In this document: positions 3,856 to 31,250 of the stretch, piece by piece
Layout of the letters: every line of letters starts with the position of its first letter
How positions within the stretch are numbered: position 1 is the first letter of the stretch
Assembly (NCBI RefSeq): GCF_902788255.1
Contig: NZ_CADAJR010000031.1
Span: 1 to 43,530, forward strand
DNA from: an uncultured Methanobrevibacter sp.
Lineage (GTDB): Archaea; Methanobacteriota; Methanobacteria; Methanobacteriales; Methanobacteriaceae
Direction of reading: 5' to 3'
Length of the DNA: 43,530 nt
Program-made: the position numbers and the translations under genes
The notes under the pieces: model-generated
Databases searched by the model: none
Seen by the model: the letters and a program-made list of their open reading frames with translations, nothing else
Told to the model about the DNA's origin: nothing

Positions 3856-3912
3856 TTTTTTTTTAAAACTTAAATATAAAAATTGTTAATATATTATATT
3901 GAAGGTGATTAG

Positions 3913-4743
3913 ATGGATTTCATAAGACAGACTGAAGTAATTCAATGGAAAGATGGAAAATACGAAACAATCAAGGAAAACAGTGTGGATGATGAATATA
4001 CATATCTGTTCATCGATTATTTGCCTCCAAGGAAATTTTCCACATATCCCAAGGATTTGGAGGACTTTGCAATTGGATACTGTTTAGGTGAGGGACTCAT
4101 CAAGGATTACTCGGATATTGAATCCATCAGGCTCGATGGGACAAATGTGCTCGTTTCAACAAAGCTCTCACATGATCCTGAAGAGGACATGGAACAGGAG
4201 GGCATAGTTCAGGAGAGAAAAGGCAACTGTGAACATGCCTGTGTTTGCAGGCTATTGGAATATCAGGGGGTAAACTCTGACAATGCCGGAGGGATTCGTT
4301 CCGAACTTAAAACCATAGAGCCCAACACCTCTGATTTGACAATTGATGCAACACAAATCATCAGGGATATCAAGCACCTGACAGATGAGGCCAAAATTTG
4401 GCAGAAAACTGCAGGTGTTCATGTTGCACAGCTGAAATTTGAGGATAAAATCATCATCCGTGAGGATGTAAGCCGTCACGTTGCGGTGGACAAGGTAATC
4501 GGAGCCGCTTCAAAAGAAGGTTATGATTTTAGCAGATGTTACATTTCATACAGTGGAAGGATGCCCGCTGACATGCTGATTAAGGTGATACGTGTCGGTG
4601 TGCCAATAATCATATCAAATGCTGCGCCCGCATCATCAGGTATTGATGTGGCCCAGGCGGGAAATATTACGATGGTCGGTTTTGTCCGTGACAACAGGTT
4701 TACAGTATATACCGCACCTGAAAGGGTGAATCTAAAAAAATAA
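3913..4743 (+). CDS. fdhD: FdhD-like formate dehydrogenase accessory sulfurtransferase
   Basis: 276 residues, the usual FdhD length. Family blocks seen: EDFAIGYCLGEGLI near 50-63; the C-terminal REDVSRHVAVDKVIGAA; the NAAPASSGIDVA stretch; and MVGFVRDNRFTVYTAPERV at the end. FdhD passes sulfur from a cysteine desulfurase to the molybdenum/tungsten bis-MGD cofactor of formate dehydrogenase, which fits a formate-using methanogen. Oddity: the E. coli protein uses a CXXC pair, whereas here the matching loop reads N-C106-E-H-A-C110-V-C112, so the spacing is CX3CXC. The ATG is preceded by AGGTGATTAG, a good ribosome site. It converges with the ThiF-like gene, with a 3-base gap. No formate dehydrogenase subunit is visible in the window. 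Confidence 0.88.
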   Translation: MDFIRQTEVIQWKDGKYETIKENSVDDEYTYLFIDYLPPRKFSTYPKDLEDFAIGYCLGEGLIKDYSDIESIRLDGTNVLVSTKLSHDPEEDMEQEGIVQERKGNCEHACVCRLLEYQGVNSDNAGGIRSELKTIEPNTSDLTIDATQIIRDIKHLTDEAKIWQKTAGVHVAQLKFEDKIIIREDVSRHVAVDKVIGAASKEGYDFSRCYISYSGRMPADMLIKVIRVGVPIIISNAAPASSGIDVAQAGNITMVGFVRDNRFTVYTAPERVNLKK

Positions 4744-4746
4744 GGT

Positions 4747-5511
4747 TTAAAGTTCATTTAAAGAAAATGAACTTAAATCAAGCAGGTCGAAAGTCAATAT
4801 ATTTGGAGCTACGGTAACCTTACCGACTCCTGTAATTATTTTATATGCCTCCATCGCCTCAAGACATCCGATCAGATTCGGAGTTGCCGCAATGACCGGT
4901 GGAACACCTGATGTAACGTTCTTCAGGGCATCAATGGTTTCATCATTTAGCTCTTTTCCAACAGAAGGCAGGTTGAACATTTCCTCGTAAGTTTTGTCGC
5001 TGTTTGGAAGGAATACGGTGATTTGGCCTAATGTTCCATGAATTGCGCCGTGAATGTATGGTATTCCTTTTTCCTTAGCCTTTCTGGATACTATGACACG
5101 GGTCAATACATTGTCAAGTGCATCAATTACGATGTCTGAGTCTCCAATGACTTTGTCAATATTGCTTTGGTCTACATGCTCGTCATAGGCGGTAACCTTT
5201 ACATAGGGATTTATCAGTCTGACCTTTTCCTTGGCAACTGCACTTTTGGAAAGGCCCAATTCGGCAATTGATGCCAATGTTTGGCGGTTAAGATTTGAAA
5301 GGTCAAATGCATCCTCATCGACAAGCACCAGTTTTCCGATACCCATTCTTGCAAGCATTTCAATTGTCTGTCCGCCTATTCCTCCACAGCCAATGACCGT
5401 GATTTGGGCATCCTTGAATCTTTCCTGTTCACTTCTGGTTACTATACTCATTTGACGGGAAGCTATTTCCCAGTATCCGTCACCTATGTATCTTGTTGGC
5501 ATGTTATTCAC
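4747..5511 (-). CDS. ThiF/MoeB/HesA-family adenylyltransferase without zinc or catalytic cysteines
   Basis: 254 residues of the E1-like fold. Dinucleotide-binding GCGGIGG is at 41-47, followed by LVLVDEDAFDLSNLNRQ with the adenylation Arg76, and later DIVIDALDN. Family members adenylate the C-terminal Gly of a ubiquitin-like sulfur carrier (MoaD, ThiS). MoeB and ThiF carry two CXXC zinc pairs and, in many members, a catalytic Cys. Here the only cysteines are in GCGG and in the IGCLEAME helix, so both features are missing. This suggests a HesA-like member that adenylates without forming a thioester. Ribosome site AGGTGAATAAC precedes the start. The first 8 bases overlap the end of the LarE-like gene, so the two are co-transcribed and probably coupled in translation. 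Confidence 0.85.
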   Translation of the reverse strand: MNNMPTRYIGDGYWEIASRQMSIVTRSEQERFKDAQITVIGCGGIGGQTIEMLARMGIGKLVLVDEDAFDLSNLNRQTLASIAELGLSKSAVAKEKVRLINPYVKVTAYDEHVDQSNIDKVIGDSDIVIDALDNVLTRVIVSRKAKEKGIPYIHGAIHGTLGQITVFLPNSDKTYEEMFNLPSVGKELNDETIDALKNVTSGVPPVIAATPNLIGCLEAMEAYKIITGVGKVTVAPNILTFDLLDLSSFSLNEL

Positions 5512-6520
5512 CTATATTTCTTCTTAATTTTGGTAGTATGTTCATGAATGCATTCAATGCATCTTCATAAGTCTTAAAGTCGTTTCCCTCAACCAATCCG
5601 TTTTGGCTGATTGCAATATTTTCTAATTCAATTTTGTTTTTGGTTTCATTAATAATTTTACTTTTGATTTCGGACATTGTATTTTCAAGGTTTATTGTAA
5701 ACGGCAGCCTGTATGAAAATGAACCCATTTCATAGTCAAGAACAATGTCCTCGTTATCATCAATTTGTGATAAATTTAATGCAACTTTTCTAAATCCTTG
5801 CCCTTTTAATGCATCATTGATTTCATTATATTTGCCGTCCCTTAAAATTTCACCGATGTCATCCACTTCAATAATACCAACTTCCCCATTGTCCCTGACT
5901 TTGACTATTTCACAGTTGGTATTGCCTAAAATGTAATCCTCACAGAAGCTGATTTTTCTGATTTTTTCAGGTGTTGTGGGGGTATTTGCCGCAATTCTTG
6001 TTGCAAGACAGGTTGTTGACCTGGAGTAAGGGATATTGTTTCGGTTCAGATATTCATGAATCTCTTTTGAAGTTAATCTTGCCTCAATCAAGGGGGTGTT
6101 GAATCCCTTTGAATAGGTTATCAAAATTCCCGGCCTGTCAATTACAAGATCACTTATGTTGTTTCCGTCACAGATAAAGTCAAAGCCTTTTTTGCGGGCA
6201 AGCTTTTCGATTTCATCATACATCATGCTGCGGCATGTGAAACATCTTTTCAGGTCATTTTTTAGGAAATTCTCATTTTCATAAAAATTGATGTCGATAA
6301 TCTCATGATTGATTTTAAATCTTTCACACATTTCATTTACATGATCTATAAAACCGGTTGGAAAGAGATGATTGTCAATTGTTATTGCTAGTGTGTCCTC
6401 TGCATATTTTGATGCCAGATGGGCTATCAGCGTTGAGTCCGCACCGCCTGAAAATCCGATGGCTACCTTTTCATCCTTTAGGATGTCTTTGACAATATTG
6501 ATTTTATCTTCCAGATTCAT
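5504..6520 (-). CDS. larE: LarE-like ATP-dependent sulfur transferase (PP-loop ATPase)
   Basis: 338 residues. The N-terminal PP-loop SGGADS (24-29) marks an N-type ATP pyrophosphatase. Family parts follow: ICDGNNISDL, then SRSTTCLATRI. LarE sulfurates a pyridinium dicarboxylate precursor of the nickel-pincer nucleotide. Some members sacrifice one cysteine; others bind a [4Fe-4S] cluster through three cysteines. The set C93-F-T-C96 and C171 matches the three-cysteine, cluster-type arrangement, so catalytic rather than sacrificial sulfur transfer is inferred. It is longer than the roughly 270-residue LarE norm; the extra C-terminal part (about 240-338) is unrecognised. It is first in an operon with the ThiF-like gene. 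LarB/LarC are not in the window, so the real acceptor could be another cofactor. Confidence 0.8.
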   Translation of the reverse strand: MNLEDKINIVKDILKDEKVAIGFSGGADSTLIAHLASKYAEDTLAITIDNHLFPTGFIDHVNEMCERFKINHEIIDINFYENENFLKNDLKRCFTCRSMMYDEIEKLARKKGFDFICDGNNISDLVIDRPGILITYSKGFNTPLIEARLTSKEIHEYLNRNNIPYSRSTTCLATRIAANTPTTPEKIRKISFCEDYILGNTNCEIVKVRDNGEVGIIEVDDIGEILRDGKYNEINDALKGQGFRKVALNLSQIDDNEDIVLDYEMGSFSYRLPFTINLENTMSEIKSKIINETKNKIELENIAISQNGLVEGNDFKTYEDALNAFMNILPKLRRNIGE

Positions 6521-6587: not shown

Positions 6588-6734
6588 GGCGAGTTTCTTG
6601 TTTTTGTTGGTAGAATATATATTAAGGAGTTTTGTTTAGACTCTACCTTCTGAATAACTTAATCAAATAACATTTATGCTTTTTTCAAGTTATTTTGTAT
6701 GGAAAAAATAGAATTGCTTTGAAATGTTAATTAT

Positions 6735-6748
6735 ATAACAATAGTTAT
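6735..6748. promoter_or_regulatory. Candidate operator ATAAC-N4-GTTAT upstream of the ATP-grasp gene
   Basis: ATAACAATAGTTAT has perfect 5-base arms and lies 115 bases before the ATP-grasp start. The same arm pattern occurs ahead of the amidotransferase operon (22084) and, with one changed base, at 22104 and 25815. In AT-rich DNA such a site can arise by chance. Confidence 0.3.
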
Positions 6749-6863
6749 TTTTTCCATGAAGTTAAGTTAGTACAAAATAATATTTAAATATTTTGAAATT
6801 GGATTAGTATTTTATATTAAAAAATGTATAAAATATTGTATATAATAATAAAATTTGGCGAAC

Positions 6864-11004: not shown

Positions 11005-11034
11005 TTGTTGACTATATGGTTTGGAGGTAAAGAC

Positions 11035-12579: not shown

Positions 12580-12588
12580 GTTGGTATT

Positions 12589-13821: not shown

Positions 13822-13836
13822 ATGCTTAAATTTTTT

Positions 13837-13868
13837 AATTTAAATTATTTTTAATAATAATTTAAATT
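13837..13868 (+). terminator. AT-only hairpin after hsdS
   Basis: A 13-base arm AATTTAAATTATT (13837-13849) and its perfect complement (13856-13868) enclose a 6-base loop, followed by a T-rich run. It sits 16 bases after the hsdS stop and is a likely terminator for hsdRMS. Confidence 0.45.
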
Positions 13869-13932
13869 TATTATTTTTGTTTAATTAATTATTGTTTTTA
13901 TATTATTTTGTTTATTTGAGTCATATTTACCA

Positions 13933-13956
13933 ACTACGATTTAGTGGATTTGATGA
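13933..13956 (+). repeat. Putative recombination site 1, cassette C copy
   Basis: Same 24-base unit as at 12615 with one base changed (GGTGG to AGTGG within the core). Direct orientation relative to the expressed gene, so exchange with 12615 would delete rather than invert. Confidence 0.7.
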
Positions 13957-14512
13957 AGAATGGAAATCGCATCAATTAGGTGAAATTAGTGATGTTACAA
14001 AATTAGCTGGATTTGAATTCACAGAATATGTTAATTATTCTGATGAGGGCAATATTATTGCTTTAAGAGGATTAAACATTAAAAATAATAAATTAGACTT
14101 ATCTGATGTCAAATATATTGATAATAGTGATTTTACTAAATTAAACAGAAGTAAGTTATATATTGGTGATTTATTATTTACATATGTTGGAACCATTGGT
14201 GAAGTTGCATTAATCTCAGAAAATGATAAATATTATTTAGCACCTAATGTATGTAGAATAAGATGTGATGAAGAGGTTAATCCTGATTTACTTAAATTTT
14301 ATTTTAATTCTATATTAATTAAAAAAGAAATACTAAAATATGTTACTAAAAGCTCCCAACCAGCTTTATCTATGGAAAATATTAGAAAATTCAAAATTAA
14401 ACTTCCATCTATTTCAGAACAAGAAAAAATTGCTAATTTTTTAATTACTATTGATAAAAAGATAGAATTATTGGAAAAGAAACACGATTCATATGTAAAC
14501 TTCAAAAAATAT

Positions 14513-14545
14513 TTGATGCAACAGATTTTCGCACAGAAATTAAGA
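14513..14545 (+). repeat. Putative recombination site 2, cassette C copy
   Basis: 33 bases beginning TTGATGCAACAGATTTTC, identical to the copies on the opposite strand at 15082-15114. It ends exactly where cassette C stops and the reversed cassette E begins. Confidence 0.7.
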
Positions 14546-14548
14546 ATT

Positions 14549-15114
14549 ATCTGCTTTGGCATATATTCAAACATTTGTTGGAGCAATCCTTTTTTAAATT
14601 CATTTGTTTCATCAAGTTGTTTTTGAGTACAGTTTATTTTTATATCAACATTAGAAAACATGTCAGATATTTTATTTTGTTCTTCTAAATTTGGTATAGG
14701 CAACTTTACATTTTTTATAATTGAAAAATGTCTTTTATACCCTTCAGGTTTGATATTAAAGTGTTCTAATGCATAAAATAAATATTTTGGAATAGTATTT
14801 ATTTTTGGTAATAAAAGTTTAACACCATCCGCTCCAACAATAAATGGTTTATCTCTAAATTTAACAAATGTTGTATGGTCTCCATATATAATAATAGGCA
14901 ACTCATGACATAATTTATTTTTATCATCAAAATAACCAGCAATTTCATCTTGGCCTTGATCAATAACCTCAAAATCACCATAATCATTTATTTCAGCACT
15001 TTTTATTTGATATCTTCTTGGAGAAACAGATTTAAAAATATCATTAACACTTAGATACTTCCATTCATCACTGAAGTTAAATCTTAATTTCTGTGCGAAA
15101 ATCTGTTGCATCAA
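14549..15114 (-). pseudogene. Silent hsdS cassette E (second-half TRD, inverted)
   Basis: Read on the minus strand, it begins in the central repeat (MQQIFAQKLRFNFSDEWKYLSVNDIF). It carries a complete second-half TRD (GDFEVIDQGQDEIAGYFDD ... IIIYGDHTTFVKF ... ADGVKLLLPK) and ends with the terminal hsdS helix EFKKGLLQQMFEYMPKQI. The frame then runs without a stop into the reversed end of cassette C until 14299, adding about 85 unrelated residues, so the original stop was lost at the junction. Its own start is missing. With cassette D it forms an hsdS-like unit in opposite orientation to the expressed gene. Confidence 0.82.
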
Positions 15115-15145
15115 TTAATTTCTGTGCGAAAATCTGTTGCATCAA
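15084..15145 (-). repeat. Exact 31-bp tandem duplication of recombination site 2
   Basis: Two adjacent identical 31-base units (15084-15114 and 15115-15145), each starting TTGATGCAACAGATTTTC on the minus strand. As 31 is not a multiple of three, the duplication breaks the frame between cassettes D and E: D ends in KLIDATDFRTEIKI and a stop. It lies exactly on the central hsdS repeat. Confidence 0.85.
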
Positions 15146-15740
15146 GTACTTCTTGAAATTCTGATAATCCTCATATTTATGTTCCAATAATTCAATTTTT
15201 TTATCAATAAATGAAAATAAATTTACAATATTCTGTTGTTCACTCTTAGAAGGAATATTAACACTTAATTTAGATAAATTATTCTTACTTATTCCCAACA
15301 CCGAAATTCCGTTTGCAATTCGTTTAATATTTGTTTTTAAATCATCTGTTAAAAATAGATAACCTTTAAAACCATTAATTGTTATATTTTTTTCATCACG
15401 AGCTAAAATTGTATGCAAACCGGCTAACACTTTTTCATCATTAATATCTTTAACTTCAATAGCTTTTCCAATATCAGCATAATCTTCTGAAGCATCAGCA
15501 ATAATTAAATCCCCATCTTGTAAATATTGACTATCTTTGTATTTAGACAAATCTATGTCATTGTTAATAAAAGGAATATCCTTATTATCATGAACAGATA
15601 ATATTGTTGGGAATTTAGTGTGAATATCGCCATAATGTATGTTTTTAACATTTCCCTGTTCATAATTCAATTTTTCTCTTGAAAATGAATTTGTAGAATA
15701 AAATGTTAAAATATCACCCAATTTAACCGATTTCCATTCA

Positions 15741-15764
15741 TCATCAAATCCGCTAAATCGTAGT
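15741..15764 (-). repeat. Putative recombination site 1, inverted copy (cassette D)
   Basis: Minus-strand copy of the 24-base unit with core CTACGATTTAGCGGATTT. It is inverted relative to 12615, and the roughly 3.1 kb between them would flip in an inversion. Confidence 0.75.
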
Positions 15765-15825
15765 ATTTGATGCTGTATATAATTTCAAAATTTATTAAAA
15801 AGATATTTGTATATGGTGATTTTTC

Positions 15826-16821
15826 ATGAAAAATATTTTAATTAATTTAATTAAAACTAAAATGAAATATTATTTAAATGAATCTCAAATATCTGAACTT
15901 AATCATGCTCTTGAATCAGTATTAAATGATTTTGAGGTTATTAAAAAGGATAAGAATTTAACAATTGATGAATCAAAAGAAAATCATGATTTGGTGGTTA
16001 ATTTTCTTTCAGCTAAACAAATTGAGGGATGTTCAGAAAGAACTATTGCTTATTATAAAACAACTATTTTCAAGATGTTGGGTTCAATTAATTTAAAAAT
16101 TGAAAACATCACTACTGATGATTTGAGAAAATATTTGTCTGACTATAAAGACCAAACTACTGCATCTAAATCAACTATTGACAATATACGTCGTGTTCTT
16201 TCAAGTTTTTTCAGTTGGCTTGAAGATGAGGATTATATTCTTAAAAATCCTGTTCGAAGAATTCATAAGATTAAAACCAGAAAGGTTGTTAAAGAAGTTT
16301 TATCGGATGAAAATTTTGAGATTTTAAGGGACAATTGCAGCAACATTAGGGATTTGGCAATGATTGAGCTTTTGGCTTCAACTGGTATACGTGTGGGTGA
16401 GCTAGTTAATTTGAATATTGATGATGTTTTATTTAATGAACGGGAATGTGTAGTATTGGGTAAAGGAGACTCTGAACGTATTGTTTACTTTGATGCTAAA
16501 ACAAAAATTCATCTGCAAAAATATCTGGCGTCAAGAAAAGATCATAATCCTGCATTATTCGTGTCATTTAAAAAACCTTACAATAGACTTGGGATTAATG
16601 GAGTCGAGAGGAGAATACGTGAACTTGGCAGGGAGGCCAATATTAAAAAAGTGCATCCTCATAAATTCAGAAGAACAATGGCGACTAATGCAATCGATAA
16701 GGGAATGCCGATTGAACAGGTTCAAAAGTTATTGGGTCATGTACAGATTGACACTACTATGCAGTATGCAATGGTTAATCAGAGTAATGTGAAAATAGCT
16801 CATAGGAAGTTCATAGGGTAA
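15826..16821 (+). CDS. Tyrosine recombinase, probable hsdS invertase
   Basis: 331-residue XerC/D-type tyrosine recombinase. The N-terminal core-binding helical domain is at about 55-150 (VNFLSAKQIEGCSERTIAYY). The catalytic domain carries the expected residues: Arg189 (TGIRVGEL), Lys213 in the beta turn (VVLGKGDSER), His279 and Arg282 (HPHKFRRT), His305 (LLGHVQIDTT) and nucleophile Tyr314 (MQYAMV). Ribosome site GGTGAT lies 5 bases before the ATG. It begins only 62 bases beyond the outer hsdS repeat. In bacterial phase-variable type I systems a recombinase in this position inverts hsdS modules, and that role is inferred here. A phage integrase or a housekeeping Xer protein are alternatives; no attachment site or phage gene is visible. 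Confidence 0.92.
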   Translation: MKNILINLIKTKMKYYLNESQISELNHALESVLNDFEVIKKDKNLTIDESKENHDLVVNFLSAKQIEGCSERTIAYYKTTIFKMLGSINLKIENITTDDLRKYLSDYKDQTTASKSTIDNIRRVLSSFFSWLEDEDYILKNPVRRIHKIKTRKVVKEVLSDENFEILRDNCSNIRDLAMIELLASTGIRVGELVNLNIDDVLFNERECVVLGKGDSERIVYFDAKTKIHLQKYLASRKDHNPALFVSFKKPYNRLGINGVERRIRELGREANIKKVHPHKFRRTMATNAIDKGMPIEQVQKLLGHVQIDTTMQYAMVNQSNVKIAHRKFIG

Positions 16822-18597: not shown

Positions 18598-19536
18598 ATG
18601 GATAATAAAGTTATCGCAATTATTATTGCAATTATCGTTATTGTTATTGCCGGAGGATATTTCCTTTTGGGAGGTTCAGGCGATACTGTAACAATCGGGT
18701 ATCTGCCTTCTGATCACGATGCGGCATTGTTTGTTGCAGACGCTCAGGGCAAATACAAGGAAAATGGAATCAATACCAAACTGGTACAGTTCAACAATGG
18801 TGGAGATTTGATGACTGCAATGGCAAGCGGTGAAGTTGATGTGGGTTATGTTGGAATCACACCGGTTCTTTCATCAATTGCCAAAGGAGTTCCGGTCAAG
18901 GTAATTTCCGCCGCACAGACTGAAGGGTCAGGAATCGTCGTTGCCAAAGACTCAGGAATTAACGATGTTTCCGATTTGGCTGGCAAAAAGATAGCAACAC
19001 CGGGTGAGGCTTCAATCCAGCACATGCTGTTGACCTACTACCTTGAGCAGAATGGAATGAAAATCTCTGATTTGAAGGTTTCAGCAATGAAGGTTCCTTC
19101 AATGAATGATGCTCTCAAAACCGGAAAGATTGACGGTATGATAACATTTGAGCCTTATGTGACTATTGCTGAGAAAAACGGTGCTACCGTCCTTGCAGGT
19201 TCAAAGGACATACTGCCTGAGCATCCATGCTGTGTTGTTGTGGCAACAGACAAGTTCCTTGAAAACAAGCCGAACGAGACCCAAAAGATATTGGAAATCC
19301 ATGAAAACGCAACAAAATTCATTAATGAAAAACCTGATGAGGCTGCGGAAATGCTTCCAAGTGACATTGTAAGTGATGTTGAGGTTGAAAAGACTTCAAT
19401 GGCAAGTTTCCCATTCATATCAGGTTTGAATGATACCTACAAACAGGATGTAATGGACTTTATGAACCTGGAAGTTAAGTTGGGTGTTTTAAAAGATCCT
19501 TTATCACAGGATAAGATTTTCTGGAAAGGCAGTTAA
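18598..19536 (+). CDS. ABC transporter substrate-binding protein (NMT1/SsuA-like), membrane-anchored
   Basis: 312 residues. It has an N-terminal hydrophobic anchor (VIAIIIAIIVIVIAGGYFLL) without an obvious cleavage site. A type 2 periplasmic-binding fold follows, of the nitrate/sulfonate/taurine group: TIGYLPSDHDAALFVADAQG, FNNGGDLMTAMASGEVDVGYVG, KVISAAQTEGSGIVV, and DALKTGKIDGMITFEPYV. The ligand is unknown. A shared HPCCVVVA with two adjacent cysteines is unusual. A close paralog lies at 25910. No permease or ATPase gene is in the window, so either these proteins feed a transporter encoded elsewhere or they serve as receptors. Ribosome site GGTGATTAA overlaps the approach to the ATG. Confidence 0.88.
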   Translation: MDNKVIAIIIAIIVIVIAGGYFLLGGSGDTVTIGYLPSDHDAALFVADAQGKYKENGINTKLVQFNNGGDLMTAMASGEVDVGYVGITPVLSSIAKGVPVKVISAAQTEGSGIVVAKDSGINDVSDLAGKKIATPGEASIQHMLLTYYLEQNGMKISDLKVSAMKVPSMNDALKTGKIDGMITFEPYVTIAEKNGATVLAGSKDILPEHPCCVVVATDKFLENKPNETQKILEIHENATKFINEKPDEAAEMLPSDIVSDVEVEKTSMASFPFISGLNDTYKQDVMDFMNLEVKLGVLKDPLSQDKIFWKGS

Positions 19537-19783: not shown

Positions 19784-22021
19784 ATGAAAGTTACAAAAAA
19801 ACTACTTCTTGTTGCTTTGCTACTTTCTTTAATATTGTCCATAGGAGCGGTAACGGCCCAGGACAATATAACTTTCGAGAAAAGCAACTTACAAGACATT
19901 TCAACAGAAACAATTAATCAGATTGATGAACAGACTTCTTCTGATGATGTTCTCAATGAAAATAATGAAGATAACAAATTAAAAGAGGACGTCGTCAGAG
20001 CATATGAGTTTTCAGATATTCAAAGTTGGATAAACTCCGCTAGCGAAGGAGAAACAATTTATCTCAACGGCGAGTATTATTCAAATTCAGGAAACCCAAT
20101 TGATGTAACAAAAAATAACATAACCCTAATTGGGGGCTCACAGTCAAACCCTAACTCAATAGCCACACTGGATGCGAATGGAATATCAAGCATAATGAAT
20201 ATTGCCGCAAGCAATGTGGTTATAAAGGGCATCAAATTCATAAATGGATATGCGCCAATAATTCAGAAGTATAATATGCATGAGGGGAGTTATTATAATG
20301 AGAGTACAGATGTTGGTGCTATTGACATAACCGGTTCAAACTGTAAAATAATGTCCTGCAGTTTTATAAATAATGCTGCAACCCAAGATGCAGGAGCCAT
20401 TAAAATAGGACAATTTACCGCAAATAACATAATAGATGAATGTGTTTTTGAAGATAATAATGCAAGAGCGGGTGGTGCTATTCTTATACGGGGTGATAAT
20501 GTTTCCGTATTGAACTCTAATTTCACCAATAATTTTGCATCAAGTGGCGGAACAATTGAATCAAGTGGTAGGAATGCAATTATTGACAATTGCAATTTTA
20601 TCAACAATTATGCATATTTTGATGGGGGAGCAATAGGAGTATCTGGTTTCAATTCCACTATAATTAACTCCAACTTCATCAACAGTTCATGTAATCGTGA
20701 TGGGGGAGCAATTTCCATTAATAGAGATAACATTACCGTAAAATCCAATAAATTCATTGATAGTCATTCCACAAGAAACGGTGGTGCAATTTATATTTTT
20801 GATAATAACAATTGTGTTGTCGAAAACAATAGATTTCTTAACAGCACTGCTGGTGACGGTGCCGATATTTGGATAAAAGGAATGAACAATCAGATTTTAA
20901 GCAATTCTTTTTATGGTCCTATGGGAGTCTATGAAGACAATCCCGGCAGTGCCATTATCGAAAACAATGCTGAAAATGTTGAATTCTATTCAATAAATGT
21001 TAACTCATCGATTGTCGATTTTGTCGGCAGGACAATTCAGATTCCAATCTATATTACTGATATCTTAGACACTCCGGTCTCCGGAACAGTGACCTTATAT
21101 GGTTGGGGCGACCAGACACTGGTGGGCGGAAAGGCAATGTTTATCATCAATCTGCCGTCAACTCCAACAGTTTTAAAATCCTATGTGAAATATGGGGATG
21201 AAATAAAAAACATCACAATTGAAAGCATTGCCCATGATTCAATTGAAAGCATCTCTCAAAATGCTAATGATGATATTATCGTCAAGCTTTCATCTGGTGC
21301 TACAGGCACTATTATAGTAAACATCAACGGAGTTAACTATATTGCTGATGCGGTAAACGGAACCGCCACAGTCAGACCTAAAGGTTTGGTTAACGGAGAA
21401 TACACTGCTATTGTGTTATATTCCGGTGATGATGAGTATTCTAATGAATGGAGCATTATCCCAATCAACATTACACAGTCTCCAGTCTATAAGCTAACTC
21501 AAAACAAGGACATTAATGTCATGTACAGCGGCAAGGCATCATATAAAGTACTGGTTATGAAGGATGGTAAGCCGGTTGCAGGCGAAAATGTTGTAATCAG
21601 CTTCAACGGCAAGAACAACAATGTCAAAACCGATGCAAATGGATATGCAACCCTGAACCTTGACACAGGCATCAAGCCTGGATCATACAATGTCAAAACC
21701 ACTTATAATGGTGTAAGCGCAACCAACAAGGTCAACATTAAACAGATTATAAAAGCATCAGACAAAAAGGTCAAAAAGTCTGCCAAGACCACTAAAGTCA
21801 AGATTTCCCTGAGCAAGGTTGACGGCAAGTATCTGAAAGGCAAGACCCTGAAAGTCAAGTTCAACGGCAAGACTTATAAGGTCAAAACCAACAGCAAGGG
21901 CGTTGGAATATGGAAAGTTAAAAAATCCATGGTTAAAAAGCTTAAAGTCGGCAAAAAGGTTAAATATACAATAACTTATGGCAAGGACGCCTTAACCAAG
22001 AAATTAATCATAAAAAAATAG
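19784..22021 (+). CDS. Secreted adhesin-like protein with right-handed beta-helix and Ig-like repeats
   Basis: 745 residues. It has a classic signal peptide (MKVTKKLLLVALLLSLILSIGAVTA, cut near residue 26). An Asn/acidic linker precedes a parallel beta-helix at about 85-420 with repeated rungs such as CVFEDNNARAGGAI, NFTNNFASSGGTIES and NFINNYAYFDGGAIG. About 430-570 is Ig-like. About 575-665 is a second Ig-like/carboxypeptidase-regulatory-like domain (VLVMKDGKPVAGENVVISFNG). The end (about 670-745) is very Lys-rich (KTLKVKFNGKTYKVKTNSKG) and could bind the acidic cell wall. Large families of such proteins are known from Methanobrevibacter and are thought to act at the cell surface in attachment. 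No membrane anchor is seen at the C-terminus. It lies between the two substrate-binding protein genes. Confidence 0.9.
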   Translation: MKVTKKLLLVALLLSLILSIGAVTAQDNITFEKSNLQDISTETINQIDEQTSSDDVLNENNEDNKLKEDVVRAYEFSDIQSWINSASEGETIYLNGEYYSNSGNPIDVTKNNITLIGGSQSNPNSIATLDANGISSIMNIAASNVVIKGIKFINGYAPIIQKYNMHEGSYYNESTDVGAIDITGSNCKIMSCSFINNAATQDAGAIKIGQFTANNIIDECVFEDNNARAGGAILIRGDNVSVLNSNFTNNFASSGGTIESSGRNAIIDNCNFINNYAYFDGGAIGVSGFNSTIINSNFINSSCNRDGGAISINRDNITVKSNKFIDSHSTRNGGAIYIFDNNNCVVENNRFLNSTAGDGADIWIKGMNNQILSNSFYGPMGVYEDNPGSAIIENNAENVEFYSINVNSSIVDFVGRTIQIPIYITDILDTPVSGTVTLYGWGDQTLVGGKAMFIINLPSTPTVLKSYVKYGDEIKNITIESIAHDSIESISQNANDDIIVKLSSGATGTIIVNINGVNYIADAVNGTATVRPKGLVNGEYTAIVLYSGDDEYSNEWSIIPINITQSPVYKLTQNKDINVMYSGKASYKVLVMKDGKPVAGENVVISFNGKNNNVKTDANGYATLNLDTGIKPGSYNVKTTYNGVSATNKVNIKQIIKASDKKVKKSAKTTKVKISLSKVDGKYLKGKTLKVKFNGKTYKVKTNSKGVGIWKVKKSMVKKLKVGKKVKYTITYGKDALTKKLIIKK

Positions 22022-22053: not shown

Positions 22054-22065
22054 AGCAAATTTTTA

Positions 22066-22140
22066 TATACTATAAAATTCTATATAACATATGTTATCGC
22101 AATATAACAATTGTGATAAACCAATGAGGGAGGATAATAT
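22066..22140 (+). promoter_or_regulatory. Promoter and candidate operators of the amidotransferase-GCS2-GshA operon
   Basis: TATA-like TTTATATACTATAA lies near 22066-22079. Just downstream, over the expected transcription start, is the perfect 14-bp palindrome ATAACATATGTTAT (22084-22097). A second, slightly imperfect copy ATAACAATTGTGAT follows at 22104-22117. The placement suits a repressor. GGGAGG eight bases before the ATG is a strong ribosome site. Confidence 0.5.
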
Positions 22141-22941
22141 ATGTGTGAAATTTTTTGTTTTAATTCTAATACGCCAAAACAAGTAAATAAGTGCCTTGAA
22201 TGTTTTTACGAACACTCTGATGAACATCCACATGGATGGGGATTGGCAACTATGCAATCCGATGAATTTATTATACAAAAAGAGCCGGTAAAAGCAACAT
22301 GTAGCAAACACTTAAAGGATATATTATCCAATCCCATTGTTGGAAAGAATGTGTTCGCTCACATCAGGTTAGCTACGGTTGGTGAAATCATATCTCCCAA
22401 TTGCCACCCATTTACCGAAGCAGATGATAACAACAGATCATGGATGTTAATTCATAATGGAACCATTTTTGATTATCCTGAACTTGACAAATACAAAGAT
22501 AAGGAGAATGGGGACACTGATTCTGAGCGAATACTATTATACATTATAGACAAGGTGAATGAGTTTGAAAGCGCAAAAGGCGCACCATCAACCATAAAGG
22601 AACGCTTCAATCTATTGGCCGGGATAATATCAGACTTATCAAAAAACAACAAGCTCAACATAATGATTTACGATGGGGATTTGACCTACATCCACTCTAA
22701 CATGAGGGAATCATTGTACTACCTTAAAAATGATGATGGATTTTTGGTGGCTTCAACTCCTGTAAATGATGATGAGGACTGGAAGGAAGTTGAGATGAAC
22801 AAGCTGTTCGGTTTGATTGACGGCAATATCGTGTTTGAAAGCGAGGAACATGATAATGAATTCATTTTCACAGAATTTCATGAAAAGGCAATTGAAGAAT
22901 TTTTGAAAACAGTAAATCAGGATGGTAATGATGATCAATAA
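22141..22941 (+). CDS. Class II glutamine amidotransferase-like hydrolase (EgtC/YafJ type)
   Basis: 266 residues beginning MC, so Cys2 becomes the N-terminal nucleophile after Met removal. The other class II amidotransferase features are present: HPHGWGLA, the Arg-bearing FAHIRLATVG, SPNCHPF, the oxyanion block MLIHNGTI, and GDTDSERIL. It has no synthetase domain, as in EgtC, which removes a gamma-glutamyl group during ergothioneine synthesis, and as in YafJ-like proteins. It is the first gene of a three-gene operon: the next gene overlaps it by 20 bases. Next to two glutamate-cysteine-ligase-type genes, a gamma-glutamyl hydrolase role is more likely than ammonia supply. That is inference; the substrate is unknown. 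Confidence 0.87.
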   Translation: MCEIFCFNSNTPKQVNKCLECFYEHSDEHPHGWGLATMQSDEFIIQKEPVKATCSKHLKDILSNPIVGKNVFAHIRLATVGEIISPNCHPFTEADDNNRSWMLIHNGTIFDYPELDKYKDKENGDTDSERILLYIIDKVNEFESAKGAPSTIKERFNLLAGIISDLSKNNKLNIMIYDGDLTYIHSNMRESLYYLKNDDGFLVASTPVNDDEDWKEVEMNKLFGLIDGNIVFESEEHDNEFIFTEFHEKAIEEFLKTVNQDGNDDQ

Positions 22942-24331
22942 AGAGATGGTTAGAAATCAATTGTATGGAGAGTTTATAAGACCAACCAATCAGAACAAGA
23001 ATTTCATAGGCATTGAAATTGAAATTCCGATTATTAATCTTGATAAAAAAGCGGTTGATTTCAATGTGGTCCATGAAATCACAGGGAAGTTCCAAAGGCA
23101 GTTCGGTGATTTCAAAACAGACGGTGTCGATTATGACGGGAATGTATTTTCCCTGAAAAATCATTTGAATGATGATATAGTCTGTTATGACTGTTCATAC
23201 AACAACATTGAATTTGCTATGGGTCGTGAAAGGGATTTGTTTTCAATAAATGAGAGATTCAGTGAATATTATACATTTGTAAAGGAATCCTTTGAGCAGC
23301 ATAACCACACATTGACCGGAATGGGAATCAACCCCTACAGGAAATACAATGTCAATGAGCCAATTCCATCAGAAAGGTATCTGATGCTTTATCATCACTT
23401 GAAATCCTTTAAGAATTATGACAATGTTCCAATGCATTTCCATAAATACCCTGAATATGGAATGTTTTCATCAGCATCCCAGGTTCAGCTCGATGTAACC
23501 CGGGAAAATCTGGTAAAGACAATCAATGTATTTTCAAAAATAGAGCCGATTAAGGCATTGCTCTTTTCAAATTCAGTATTATACGGTGAAGATAACCAAT
23601 TTACTTGCTTTAGGGATGCGCTATGGGAATATTCAACCCATGGCGTAAATCCTCACAATATTGGAGTCTATGACGTTGAATTCAAGGACTTGAATGACCT
23701 TCAATCATATCTGGAATCATTAAATATCTATTGCGTGATGCGTGATGGTGCATATATAAACTTCCCGTCTATGAATCTTTTGGAATACTTTGCACAGGAT
23801 TACGTTTCCGGTGAAATCTATTGTAATGGAAGATATCGCCAGATTGACATCAAGCCATGCATCAATGATATTAAATACCTAAGGCCGTTTAAGTTTATCA
23901 ATCTCACATTCAGAGGAACCGTTGAATTTAGAAGCATATGCACACAGCCGATAAGGGATTCAATGTGTGTGGCGGCATTCCACTTGGGTCTTAAGGATAA
24001 ACTGGATGAACTGGAAGACATCATAACCAACGATACTGTATTGTATCATAGGGGATACACCGCAGGTGAACTTAGAAAGCTTCTGATACAGGAAAAACTT
24101 CCAGGATTCATTAATAAAAATGATTTGTGCCGTTTATCTAGAGACATTGTTGATCTCTCATCTGATGGTCTAAAGGAAAGGAACATAGGTGAGGAGATAT
24201 TTCTAAAACCATTGTATGATAGAATTAAAAAACATTCAAACCCTGGAAAGGATTTAATAAATTTGACAAAAAATGGAATTGATATTGAAAAAATCATCAA
24301 GGATTATGGAAAATTAGACATAACTATATAA
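22922..24331 (+). CDS. GCS2-family glutamate-cysteine ligase-like protein
   Basis: 469 residues (the start may be one of the ATGs at 22922, 22931 or 22934). The N-terminal FIGIEIEIPIIN is the acidic ATP/metal motif of the glutamine synthetase-like GCS2 group (EgtA, plant-type GCS, YbdK). Later blocks LTGMGINPYRKYN, SASQVQLDVT and LTFRGTVEFRSICTQP match the substrate and metal positions of that fold. Members join the gamma-carboxyl of glutamate to an amine such as cysteine. It overlaps the amidotransferase gene by 20 bases and is followed after 39 bases by a second, differently built ligase. The amine acceptor cannot be read from sequence. EgtB and EgtD partners of ergothioneine synthesis are not present nearby. 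Confidence 0.78.
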   Translation: MVMMINKEMVRNQLYGEFIRPTNQNKNFIGIEIEIPIINLDKKAVDFNVVHEITGKFQRQFGDFKTDGVDYDGNVFSLKNHLNDDIVCYDCSYNNIEFAMGRERDLFSINERFSEYYTFVKESFEQHNHTLTGMGINPYRKYNVNEPIPSERYLMLYHHLKSFKNYDNVPMHFHKYPEYGMFSSASQVQLDVTRENLVKTINVFSKIEPIKALLFSNSVLYGEDNQFTCFRDALWEYSTHGVNPHNIGVYDVEFKDLNDLQSYLESLNIYCVMRDGAYINFPSMNLLEYFAQDYVSGEIYCNGRYRQIDIKPCINDIKYLRPFKFINLTFRGTVEFRSICTQPIRDSMCVAAFHLGLKDKLDELEDIITNDTVLYHRGYTAGELRKLLIQEKLPGFINKNDLCRLSRDIVDLSSDGLKERNIGEEIFLKPLYDRIKKHSNPGKDLINLTKNGIDIEKIIKDYGKLDITI

Positions 24332-24370
24332 GTTAATGAGATACAAATTTAAACTAAAAGGGGGATGAAA

Positions 24371-25759
24371 ATGATTTTAAAGAATTTAGCCAAAATACCC
24401 TCAGATGAAATTTTGGAAGGTTCATTTGGAATAGAATGGGAAAGCTTGCGCGCCAATGAGGATGGTAAGTTATCTTTAACACCTCATCCAGCTATTTTTG
24501 GCGATAAATTAACAAATCCTCTTGTCACTACTGATTTTTCAGAAAGTCAAATCGAAATTATCACTCCCACTTTCGACACCATAGATGAGGCTTTTTCTAC
24601 ATTTTCCCTATTGTCTGATTTGGTCAATTCATCTCTTCCGGATGATGAATACCTGTGGTTTCAGTCAATCCCATGTATCCTGCCGTATTGGGACCAGATA
24701 CCGATAGCCCAATACTCTGAGGAAGGGGAGGAATCTCAAAAGTACCGTGAGGAATTGGCTAAAAAGTATGGTGTTAAAAAGCAGATGATTTCAGGAGTGC
24801 ATTTCAATTTCTCATTTAAAGATCGCTTTTTAAAGAAATTGCACTCAATTGAAAACTCTAAACTATCATTCAAGGAGTTTAAAAATCATGTTTACCTAAA
24901 GATAGCCAGAAACTACCTTAGGTATTGCTGGCTGATTATTTATTTGACAGGCTGTTCAATAGGATCTCACAAGACATTCTCCAATGACTGCATTCACCTG
25001 ATGGATGCACAAGACGAGCATGGCAGCTATTATTCAACAAGGGGACCATCATTTAGAAACGCATCCTGCGGATATAAGAACCTGAAGGAATTGTATCCGT
25101 CATACGATACTGTTGAGGATTTCACAGCTGATATTCAGAAATTCATTGATGACGGCGACTTGTCAGAGGCCAAGGAGCTTTATACCCAAATCAGGTTGAA
25201 GCCTAAAAATCCTAAGGACATGCTTAATTCATTGAACAGTGACGGAATAGAATACATTGAGATAAGGACATTGGACATCAATCCGTTCTATAAGTGCGGC
25301 CTTGTCCTGCACGACATGAACTTCCTCCATCTCTTTTTGATTTACATGTACGTCAAGGAAGAGTCTGACTATTCTCTCTGGCAAAAGGAAGCCAAGATAA
25401 ATGAGGAGAATGTTGCCGAAAAGGCATATGTCGATTCAATGAGATTATTAAGGGATGGTGAAGAGGTAACATTAAGGGAATGGGCTGCTGAAATAATCAA
25501 TGAAATGTATGGAATGTGTGAAGTGTTGGGCATTGACTATGCTAAAACATTGGACCTTATGCTCACCCGTGTTGCAAATCCTGATTTCACCTATGGAAAG
25601 AGAATGTTGAGGCTCATTGAACAGGATGGTTACATCAACGCTCATATGAAATTGTCCAAGAACAACAAGAACGTGAGCATTCTCAATCTGAAAAATATCG
25701 GTGATGTCAACTGTTCAGAGTATGAAAAATATGTCAATATCGCTCTTGTCGGTAAATAA
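24371..25759 (+). CDS. gshA: GshA-type glutamate-cysteine ligase
   Basis: 462 residues from the ATG at 24371, chosen because GGGGG ends 6 bases before it (the ATG at 24365 touches the ribosome site). Typical blocks of the proteobacterial/GshAB ligase family: GSFGIEWESLR near 17-27, TTDFSESQIEIITP, ISGVHFNFSF, STRGPSFRNASCGYKN, and IEYIEIRTLDINPF. The known reaction is ATP + Glu + Cys to gamma-glutamylcysteine in the cytosol. Gamma-glutamylcysteine is a main thiol of haloarchaea, but methanogens usually depend on coenzymes M and B. This gene looks acquired, although codon use is not obviously foreign. No glutathione synthetase gene is adjacent. It is the last gene of the operon. Confidence 0.88.
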   Translation: MILKNLAKIPSDEILEGSFGIEWESLRANEDGKLSLTPHPAIFGDKLTNPLVTTDFSESQIEIITPTFDTIDEAFSTFSLLSDLVNSSLPDDEYLWFQSIPCILPYWDQIPIAQYSEEGEESQKYREELAKKYGVKKQMISGVHFNFSFKDRFLKKLHSIENSKLSFKEFKNHVYLKIARNYLRYCWLIIYLTGCSIGSHKTFSNDCIHLMDAQDEHGSYYSTRGPSFRNASCGYKNLKELYPSYDTVEDFTADIQKFIDDGDLSEAKELYTQIRLKPKNPKDMLNSLNSDGIEYIEIRTLDINPFYKCGLVLHDMNFLHLFLIYMYVKEESDYSLWQKEAKINEENVAEKAYVDSMRLLRDGEEVTLREWAAEIINEMYGMCEVLGIDYAKTLDLMLTRVANPDFTYGKRMLRLIEQDGYINAHMKLSKNNKNVSILNLKNIGDVNCSEYEKYVNIALVGK

Positions 25760-25814
25760 TTGATAAAAAACTTTATATATTATTTTTTTAAATATTAAAA
25801 TTAGGGATTCTAAT

Positions 25815-25855
25815 ATAACAATTGTTAATTTATGTAAAGTAATTTATATATAATA
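25815..25855 (+). promoter_or_regulatory. Promoter and candidate operator of the second substrate-binding protein
   Basis: TAACAATTGTTA (25816-25827) is a perfect 12-bp palindrome within ATAACAATTGTTAAT, nearly the same as the sites at 22104 and 22084. It lies about 15-25 bases upstream of a TATA-like ATTTATATATAATA (25842-25855), a position that suits an activator. Confidence 0.45.
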
Positions 25856-25909: not shown

Positions 25910-26884
25910 ATGAATAAAAAAATTTCATTTGTTTTGGTGTTAGCACTTGCCGCATTTTTAGTAATGGGATCCGCCAGTGCAGGACTCTTCGACTTTTTAG
26001 GAGGAGATTCTTCTAACACAGTAAAAATCGGATATTTGCCATCCGATCACGATGCTGCATTATTTGTAGCAGATGCACAAGGTTTATACAAAGATAAAGG
26101 AATCAACACTGAATTGGTTCAATTCAACAATGGTGGAGATTTAATGACCGCTATGGCTAGTGGAGATGTTGATGTGGGTTATGTAGGTATTTCCCCAGTA
26201 TTGTCATCAATATCTGCTGGTGTGCCGGTTAAAGTTATTTCCGCTGCACAAACAGAAGGAAGCGGAATTATCGTCAACGATGCTTCTCACATCGAAAAAG
26301 CACAAGACTTGAAAGGAAAAACCATTGCAACTCCTGGTGATGCATCCATTCAACATGTATTGCTTTCAGCATACCTGAAAAATAATGGAATGTCCTTGGA
26401 TGACATTAACGAATCCGCAATGAAAGTTCCATCAATCAACGATGCATTGAAAACAGGCAATCTTCCAGCTGCAATAACATTCCAACCTTATGTAAGCCTT
26501 GGAGAAACCGATGACGCAATTGATGAATTGGCTGATTCATCCGAAATCATGCCAGGACACCCATGTTGTGTTGTTGTAGCATCTGAAGATTTCATTAAAA
26601 ACAATGAAAACACTACTAAAGACATAATCGCAATTCACGAAAACGCAACAAACTATATCAACGAACAAATCAAAGCAGATAAAACAGCTGATGTCGTAAA
26701 ATTATTACCTAAAGACATTGTTGCAAATGAAGATGCAGAACAAGATTCATTAGAAAGTTTCCCATTCATCTCCGGTTTAAATGAAACCTACAAAGCAAAT
26801 GTGGATGCTTTCCAACAATTAGAAGTTGAATTAGGAATCTTAAATCAAACCATTTCCCAAGATAAATTATACTGGGAAGCATAG
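25910..26884 (+). CDS. ABC transporter substrate-binding protein paralog, secreted
   Basis: 324 residues with a signal peptide (KKISFVLVLALAAFLVMGSASA). The same binding fold as the protein at 18598 follows: KIGYLPSDHDAALFVADAQG, FNNGGDLMTAMASGDVDVGYVG, SAAQTEGSGIIV, HPCCVVVA and SFPFISGLNETYK. Identity to that paralog is very high in the ligand-cleft parts. Here the anchor is replaced by a cleavable-looking signal. Codon use is strongly biased to AAA, GAA, CAA and CCA, unlike the paralog, suggesting high expression. It has its own promoter and terminator and no transporter partner. The ligand is unknown. Location after the gamma-glutamyl operon, plus the shared palindrome, makes uptake of a sulfur compound or amino-acid derivative a possibility only. 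Confidence 0.88.
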   Translation: MNKKISFVLVLALAAFLVMGSASAGLFDFLGGDSSNTVKIGYLPSDHDAALFVADAQGLYKDKGINTELVQFNNGGDLMTAMASGDVDVGYVGISPVLSSISAGVPVKVISAAQTEGSGIIVNDASHIEKAQDLKGKTIATPGDASIQHVLLSAYLKNNGMSLDDINESAMKVPSINDALKTGNLPAAITFQPYVSLGETDDAIDELADSSEIMPGHPCCVVVASEDFIKNNENTTKDIIAIHENATNYINEQIKADKTADVVKLLPKDIVANEDAEQDSLESFPFISGLNETYKANVDAFQQLEVELGILNQTISQDKLYWEA

Positions 26885-30329: not shown

Positions 30330-31250
30330 ATGAGCTTAATTATCGCTTATGTTGGAAAAAAAGGATGTGTAATGGCGAGTGATAAAAGAAAAATAGGATA
30401 CTTTGGTGATAAAAAGAATTTAAGTAAATTAGAAGAAGAATTATATGAAGGACACATTGACAATGATGATGATTTCCTTAAACGTGCCAAGGAACTTGGT
30501 ATTTCAATCAAGATTACCGATGATGCAAATAAGCTGAAAATAATCGGAAACACAATTCGTGGGGAAGTAAGTACTAAAGGAACCTTTGAAACAAGAAGAA
30601 GACGTATTTACGGAACCAAAAACGGTTATCAGATTGTTGAACTATTGGGTTCTGAAACTGAATCCCGTAAGGCCGGAGACAGTGGACTCATCGTCTTTGG
30701 AAATGAATTTGCAAAGCGTGCTGCTGAAACATTAATCAAAAGAAACTGGAAGGCCTCCCAAAGTTTAAGGTATATGGGTGAGATTTTCCAGGGCATTATA
30801 GAAGAGGTTGCTTCCAAAACTCCTACCGTAGGCAAAAATGTTGACGTGCTGATGCAACAGCCGGATTTTGATAAAACTAAAGCTCAACAACATTTGAATA
30901 TTACAATTGACCATGATATTAAAGTATTGACCAAATTCAGACAGGAACTGACTGAAAAATTGGTCCAGCAGAATCTGGAAATAGAAATGGCAAATAAAAT
31001 CATCGATAAGGGTGAGGTTGGCCGTGTTGTCCAGATTGATGGAAACATGCTTTATGTTCAATTAAATGATAAGACTCAGGCTGTTGACGGCAACTGGAAA
31101 AGACTTGCAGGCCCTGGCCAAAACGTATTGATGTTTACAGACAGCGATGATGCAAAGATTGGAGATAAGGTTATCATTGAAAACGAAGATTTATGTCTTA
31201 AAAAGGATAAGTCTTCCCTTAAATGTGATATCATTTTATGCTCATTATAA
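30330..31250 (+). CDS. DUF2121-family methanogen protein
   Basis: 306 residues, matching archaeal (mainly methanogen) DUF2121 proteins of unknown function. The N-terminus MSLIIAYVGKKGCVMASDKRKIGYFGD resembles the first strands of proteasome-type Ntn hydrolases (compare GIVCKDGVVLAADKR), so a proteasome-like fold is likely. There is no Thr or Cys at residue 2, however, so self-processing is doubtful. The C-terminal part (VGRVVQIDGNMLYVQLNDKTQAVDGNW) looks like a small beta-barrel. Ribosome site GGAGATATT. The MBL-hydrolase gene starts 12 bases after its stop, so the two share an operon. Confidence 0.75.
   Translation: MSLIIAYVGKKGCVMASDKRKIGYFGDKKNLSKLEEELYEGHIDNDDDFLKRAKELGISIKITDDANKLKIIGNTIRGEVSTKGTFETRRRRIYGTKNGYQIVELLGSETESRKAGDSGLIVFGNEFAKRAAETLIKRNWKASQSLRYMGEIFQGIIEEVASKTPTVGKNVDVLMQQPDFDKTKAQQHLNITIDHDIKVLTKFRQELTEKLVQQNLEIEMANKIIDKGEVGRVVQIDGNMLYVQLNDKTQAVDGNWKRLAGPGQNVLMFTDSDDAKIGDKVIIENEDLCLKKDKSSLKCDIILCSL

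Follow-up and report, generated by a model that had tools for sequence, protein, structure and literature searches.

The stretch of DNA analysed here (the window) is positions 1 to 43,530 of contig NZ_CADAJR010000031.1 of an uncultured Methanobrevibacter sp., and it carries three genes arranged head to tail on the + strand (Table 1): one for a stand-alone class II glutamine amidotransferase-like protein (GAT), one for a predicted gamma-glutamyl ligase remotely related to the GCS2 family (GCS2-like), and one for a stand-alone gamma-glutamylcysteine ligase (GshA). An earlier note made from the sequence alone had described these genes as a single operon, and the neighbourhood is indeed conserved in archaea and in Clostridia. 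The 20-base overlap that it gave for the GAT and GCS2 reading frames matches the open reading frame (ORF) coordinates; its 39-base gap between GCS2 and GshA holds for the second in-frame ATG of the GshA gene (24371), which is better spaced from an upstream GGGGG than the first ATG (24365), while counted to the first ATG the gap is 33 bases.

The GAT has the Cys2 nucleophile and the glutamine-binding motifs of class II amidotransferases and matches PF13230 (GATase_4) with 106.6 bits (1.4e-30, cut-off 23). Residues M1, C2, H74-I75-R76, H105-N106-G107, G124, and T126-D127-S128-E129 are invariant in all 18 aligned sequences. The closest folds to its model are those of two stand-alone proteins, YafJ-like 1te5 (Z 25.3) and EgtC (4zfl, Z 24.7), with PurF and GlmS entries following within 2 Z units.

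The assignment of the third gene as a GshA-type ligase in the earlier note is sound, since the protein scores 303.2 bits against PF04262 (2.5e-90, cut-off 27). Its best match in the PDB is the bifunctional GshAB 3ln7 (5.4e-67) and its nearest relative is the gamma-glutamylcysteine ligase half of GshF; against the GshAB model as a whole it reaches 401.4, below the cut-off of 425. Excerpts of PMC12817896 name E27, E29, D60, F61, E67, Y131, L135, I146, H150, R235, and E328 as residues that contact metal, glutamate, and cysteine, a set that fits E. coli numbering; in an alignment with 1v4g all of their counterparts are kept in GshA (E24, E26, D57, F58, E64, Y127, L131, I142, H146, R231, and E299). 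GshA residues Y237 and Y273 correspond to Y241 and Y300 of the E. coli enzyme.

The "GCS2-type" label of the second ligase is only remotely justified, because the protein scores 14.9 bits against PF04107, under the cut-off of 21; a PF04107 search of its own genome missed the gene, so the protein itself was taken as the query. The relationship stood at the level of the wider fold: a profile built from 18 homologues found plant glutamate-cysteine ligase (GCL) at 6.7e-15, and the AlphaFold model (mean pLDDT 82.5) superimposes on plant GCL 2gwc with Z 36.8 (2.9 Å over 421 residues, 18% identity), ahead of YbdK (1r8g, Z 28.9) and E. coli GshA (Z about 19). Residues Q187, D191, R231, W235, E335, and R337 are invariant in 18/18 homologues and E32/E34 nearly so, and in the profile search several of the conserved residues align with those of plant GCL. 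With their catalytic residues conserved, all three proteins look active. The earlier note had named two outcomes that would speak against its reading, i.e. a trio never co-occurring elsewhere and a loss of catalytic residues from GCS2 or GshA; the trio recurs widely (below), and both ligases keep their residues.

In a survey of 138 Methanobacteriaceae genomes, GCS2 was found in 78, GAT in 81 (after four genomes with weak matches were dropped, namely G041, where the gene is broken, G130, G132, and G137), and GshA in 84. The whole trio is present in 72 genomes and contiguous in 56, and GAT adjoins GCS2 in 74 of the 78 GCS2-positive genomes. Six genomes have GCS2 without GshA (four with GAT, two with GCS2 alone). 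GAT is also found beside GshA, either in genomes without GCS2 (G007, G008, and G032) or as a second copy (G018, G029, and G056). Extending the search to 151 genomes of the phylum added one weak 40-residue match beyond the family, and the 25 pattern stretches taken from viral contigs contained no relatives.

The module is also present in bacteria. A scan of named genomes returned at least 581 relatives, of which the best 80 are mostly from Methanobrevibacter and Methanosphaera, followed by gut Clostridia at about 55% identity and including the cultured, named strain Eubacterium oxidoreducens DSM 3217. By ORF clustering, the flank holds GAT in 25 and GshA in 21 of 28 bacterial loci, a count in which L114 and L120 were hampered by the ORF caller and L108 is cut at a contig end. 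Of 250 genomes sampled evenly around E. oxidoreducens, 11 have GCS2, with GAT adjoining in 11/11 and GshA in 6/11. The usual bacterial order is GshA-GAT-GCS2 and the archaeal one GAT-GCS2-GshA, and in one genome (G243, locus L145) GshA and GCS2 are naturally fused in a single 880 aa frame with GAT upstream, in which Pfam finds both PF04262 and PF04107, the latter passing its cut-off at 37.4 bits. The GAT-GCS2 adjacency, the contiguity of the trio, and its conservation across domains exceed chance, and a gene order that is shuffled while contiguity is kept, together with the fusion, argues for a shared pathway. In a tree of 90 GCS2 sequences, 53 of 55 archaeal rows fall into one clade (100/100 support) among bacterial rows, with L032 and L033 placed apart; with its midpoint root and long branches, this tree does not tell how many transfers took place or in which direction. 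L104 carries the label uncultured Bacillales and was counted as archaeal. It shares the gene neighbourhood of the Methanobacteriaceae contig L103, the two cluster together in the tree, and the bin is likely mislabelled.

A tandem palindromic operator lies upstream of the GAT gene (Table 1). Its 14-base core, with up to two mismatches, is present in 52 of 66 archaeal GAT upstream regions (31 exact) vs. 1.1% of shuffled regions. In the own genome of the window, there are ten unique sites with at most one mismatch, and they precede genes for CysK, CysK-CysE, MetY, MoaE, PdxS, and LarE-ThiF, the GAT operon, an SsuA-type binding protein (25910), a GMC oxidoreductase, and an MFS transporter. Sites with two mismatches are mostly noise outside sulphur genes, so the count was kept to those with no more than one; the window sites at 3874 and 22082 are exceptions, named here as two-mismatch sites. 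Of ten further regions of this genome, eight have two-mismatch sites only, and reading of their frames revealed no sulphur gene; in one, L261, a sodium-symporter-like gene follows the site, and such a gene also follows a site in L249. Six other genomes yielded 88 operator matches vs. 3 for the reversed pattern, and 40 site loci were read from four of them (all except G099 and G038). Of these loci, 24 adjoin homologues of the trio or of site-bearing genes in the own genome (ThiF, LarE, MoaE, FdhD, CysK, CysE, MetY, a MetX-linked gene, the substrate-binding protein, GAT, GshA, and GMC), and at further loci ThiS-, ThiI-, NifS-, SufC-, and pyridoxal-kinase-like genes were recognised by eye. The GAT operon bears a site in 4/4 genomes read, and in G039, whose GshA gene is separate from the GAT-GCS2 pair, that gene bears a site too. 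By inference from the genes that it precedes, the operator appears to define a cysteine/sulphur regulon, and this link is the best support for the function of the module. An HxlR-like gene noticed by eye beside a site in G039 (L238) is not claimed as the regulator because it was seen in a single genome.

Table 1. Features of the gamma-glutamyl ligase operon and of the putative sulphur regulon in the window
Feature	Position	Strand	Remarks
GAT gene	22141..22941	+	266 aa; class II glutamine amidotransferase-like N-terminal nucleophile (Ntn) hydrolase, predicted gamma-glutamyl hydrolase
GCS2-like / plant-GCL-like gene	22922..24331	+	469 aa; predicted gamma-glutamyl ligase
GshA gene	24365..25759	+	464 aa; stand-alone gamma-glutamylcysteine ligase domain, GshF type
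TATA-box-like element TTTATATA	22062..22069	+	upstream of operon; from sequence reading and related loci with the same layout
Tandem palindromic operator ATATAACAATTGTTAT	22082..22117	+	copies at 22082-22097 and 22102-22117, 20 bases apart
Palindrome	25813..25828	+	1 mismatch; upstream of binding-protein gene
SsuA/NMT1-type substrate-binding protein gene	25910..26884	+	TIGR01728 159.3 bits, cut-off 163.5
Palindrome	6733..6748	.	1 mismatch; between LarE-like (-) and ATP-grasp (+) genes
LarE-like sacrificial sulphur transferase gene	5504..6520	-	TIGR00268 166.9 bits, cut-off 150; putative regulon member
ThiF/MoeB-like adenylyltransferase gene	4747..5511	-	TIGR02356 154.5 bits, below cut-off 275.25; putative regulon member
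Weak palindrome	3874..3889	+	2 mismatches; upstream of FdhD gene
FdhD sulphurtransferase gene	3913..4743	+	TIGR00129 198.2 bits, cut-off 140.9; putative regulon member

A scan of the window for bacterial-type promoters gave matches at chance level only, and Rfam and tRNA scans gave none. The gene divergent from LarE across a sulphur operator encodes an ATP-grasp protein (6855-8114) of the PRK07206 group, distantly similar to dapdiamide synthase.

In Clostridia, flanks of up to 6 kb were read at the 28 loci. Genes for cysteine synthase (CysK), cystathionine gamma-lyase/homocysteine desulfhydrase, CymR-like Rrf2, or LuxS are nearby in 16/28, and by ORF clustering 7/28 have a gene of the cystathionine gamma-lyase type next to the trio; CysE is found in L108 and a NifS-type desulphurase in L122. 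At L151 the run consists of CysK, a CymR-like gene, the trio, a cystathionine lyase, and a MetN-like ABC gene. Two peptidase genes, one C39-like and one M20 (PepT-like), separate GAT from GCS2 in L118 and lie beside both in L146; the C39-like protein of L118 had no match in the PDB. L108 (168-8850) and L114 combine the trio or the GCS2 gene with genes for XdhC-like, MOSC, HydE-like radical SAM, NadA, cystathionine lyase, and rhodanese-TtcA proteins, plus CysE in L108 and a ThiF-like protein in L114, and their neighbourhoods are a mix of sulphur and molybdenum/hydrogenase maturation.

Two known thiol pathways were considered and rejected. For ergothioneine, to which the earlier note had tied the operon through EgtA and EgtC, the GAT scores 69.7 bits against the EgtC equivalog TIGR03442 (cut-off 218.65), EgtD (PF10017) was found in 0/16 genomes while two control genomes gave a positive signal, no EgtA model is listed among the matches of the GCS2-like protein, and that protein is nearest to plant GCL; the proposed tie did not hold. 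For glutathione (GSH), the C-terminal domain of GshF (PF18419) was found in 0/16 genomes and GSH-S_ATP (PF02955) had no match in the own genome (G000); among the 15 others, five have PF02955 matches, which are frame pairs of about 280-330 residues in G158, G159, G160, and G162 and a weak hit in G029. The earlier note had observed that EgtD and GshB are not adjacent to the trio, and in fact no EgtD or GshB-type gene was found anywhere in its genome; glutathione and ergothioneine are therefore unlikely products.

We propose that the operon is probably a gamma-glutamyl-thiol module of the cysteine/sulphur regulon, in which the ligases cap cysteine and the GAT uncaps it. GshA would link glutamate, through its gamma-carboxyl, to the cysteine amino group, producing gamma-glutamylcysteine; the GCS2-like ligase would yield this compound too, or a close gamma-glutamyl relative of it, via the same ATP-phosphate chemistry; and the stand-alone GAT would hydrolyse the gamma-glutamyl bond to glutamate and a free thiol amino acid, like EgtC and yeast Dug2p/Dug3p. 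Overall, the cap would store cysteine or give it redox protection, and would come off when cysteine is needed. The gamma-glutamyl chemistry assumed in the earlier note is thus supported; we infer the substrates of the GCS2-like ligase and of the GAT, hydrolysis rather than ammonia delivery by the latter, and the physiological role (cysteine storage or redox buffer). One ligase of either type together with GAT is enough, which would be expected of a GAT that works on ligase products; that GAT pairs with a single ligase of either type in some genomes also speaks more for a hydrolase of these products than for an ammonia feeder. The shared three-gene set, with its cysteine-linked DNA switch in the archaea, suggests an unstudied means of cysteine storage or protection that works without glutathione.

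Several observations weigh against this proposal. One ligase is redundant in the 72 trio genomes if both make gamma-glutamylcysteine. No part of the module is present in 48 of the 138 family genomes, and it is thus accessory; GshA occurs without GCS2 in 12 genomes and without either partner in 7, which makes the linkage strong rather than strict. The archaeal operator was found in 0/24 Clostridial GAT upstream regions. A 1985 survey, as cited in section 2 of PMC7278568, reported neither GSH nor gamma-glutamylcysteine in five unidentified methanogens.

A wider version of the proposal, which we put forward tentatively and as possible at best, is an undescribed low-molecular-weight thiol system of gut anaerobes that has spread between methanogens and Clostridia: the two ligases, GshA and the plant-GCL-like one (once fused), would work one after the other towards a gamma-glutamyl thiol that goes further than gamma-glutamylcysteine, the Ntn hydrolase would release it, and in archaea the genes would be controlled together with cysteine-synthesis and sulphur-transfer genes via a regulator of the ATAACAATTGTTAT operator.

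A related scheme, rather unlikely in our judgement, is sequential synthesis of a new thiol, in which the GCS2-like ligase acts on the GshA product, for example by adding a second gamma-glutamyl group or another amine, and so takes the role of GshB in GshF, while GAT trims the resulting compound or recycles it. The natural fusion has the same architectural logic as GshA-GshB in GshF, all three genes are together in 72/138 genomes, and the GshF C-terminal domain (0/16 genomes) and GSH-S_ATP (own genome) are missing; however, fusions can arise between parallel enzymes too, and GCS2 persists without GshA (in four genomes with GAT and in two alone), hence it cannot strictly depend on GshA-made gamma-glutamylcysteine. 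Class II GATs often pass ammonia to a partner synthetase (GlmS, PurF, AsnB), and no two of the genes are more tightly paired than GAT and GCS2 (neighbours in 74/78), so GAT might instead be a glutaminase subunit supplying ammonia to GCS2 for amide formation on a carboxylate substrate. This we consider improbable: GAT pairs with GshA alone in three genomes without GCS2, GshA has retained the pocket for cysteine and does not require ammonia, and glutamate plus ammonia would merely give glutamine; the top GAT folds are the stand-alone 1te5 and EgtC, a weak argument with PurF and GlmS within 2 Z. Least probable is an ergothioneine-like route with gamma-glutamylcysteine as sulphur donor, in which a conjugate forms, GAT removes glutamate, and a cystathionine lyase-type C-S lyase frees the thiol, a route favoured by the lyase genes beside the trio (7/28 Clostridial loci), the close fold match of GAT to EgtC with its natural substrate, and the operator shared with LarE, ThiF, and FdhD, but opposed by EgtD in 0/16 genomes, an EgtC score far below cut-off, and no consistently linked conjugating enzyme.

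The capping module resembles parts of several known systems. With GshF (GshAB), its GshA shares PF04262, the best match 3ln7, and the conserved metal, glutamate, and cysteine residues, but it is stand-alone, lacks a GshB domain, and is in an operon with GAT and a second ligase. That second ligase has the fold and the E..E, Q..D, R..W, and E.R motifs of plant-type GCL (2gwc, 6gmo) and YbdK-type GCS2; it differs from plant-type GCL in having 18% identity, in being prokaryotic, and in its linkage to GAT and GshA, in one genome with fusion to GshA. EgtA and EgtC act in ergothioneine synthesis by adding and removing the gamma-glutamyl group, and the likeness lies in a GCS-superfamily ligase that adjoins a Cys2 class II GAT; the operon differs in a GAT that fails the EgtC equivalog and in the lack of EgtD from the 16 genomes tested. 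The yeast DUG system (Dug2p-Dug3p, Dug1p) offers an analogy, in that a class II GAT may serve as a cytosolic gamma-glutamyl peptide hydrolase; excerpts of PMC7617739 describe Dug2p/Dug3p as a class II GAT complex cleaving gamma-Glu dipeptides. The window operon differs in its link to synthesis genes and in having no M20 gene. Dug2 is an M20-family protein; the M20-family genes beside GAT/GCS2 are PepT-like and occur only in L118 and L146.

Haloarchaea, with GshA HVO_1668, are archaea that use gamma-glutamylcysteine without GSH (PMC7278568, section 2), a likeness drawn here by description only; for them that section mentions no GAT or second-ligase partner, both of which the operon has. The same section reports homologues of the gamma-glutamylcysteine ligase from Methanobrevibacter and Methanosphaera, as well as a GshA/GshB-like synteny for some Methanobacterium. 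The earlier note's claim of an undescribed pathway thus fails for the gshA part and survives for the rest: the open-licence literature searched gave no paper on the three-gene set, its cross-domain spread, the fusion, or the operator and regulon. The thiol itself stands a fair chance of being new. It is commonly held that methanogens and strict gut Clostridia have no glutathione-type thiols, and a conserved two-ligase, one-hydrolase module in Methanobrevibacter, Methanosphaera, their relatives, and Clostridia makes the thiol buffering of these anaerobes testable with named genes and a cultured bacterium, while the operator is a handle on a candidate archaeal cysteine/sulphur regulon and its regulator.

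Some other features of the window were noted as well. Directly upstream of the operon, a gene at 19784-22021 encodes, as read from its translation, a large, repeat-rich, adhesin-like secreted protein of 745 aa; this gene and the operon are flanked by two SsuA/NMT1-type binding-protein genes, at 18598-19536 and 25910-26884. No neighbouring permease or ATPase gene was recognised at either, and the latter bears the sulphur operator. A gene for an MJ0548-like connectase (peptide ligase) is located at 30330-31250. A type I restriction-modification locus (11005-16821) comprises HsdM, two HsdS pieces on the + strand, further HsdS pieces on the - strand, and a phage-type integrase; with its long inverted repeats (up to 157 nt, and 50 nt at 90%), it looks like a phase-variable specificity switch.

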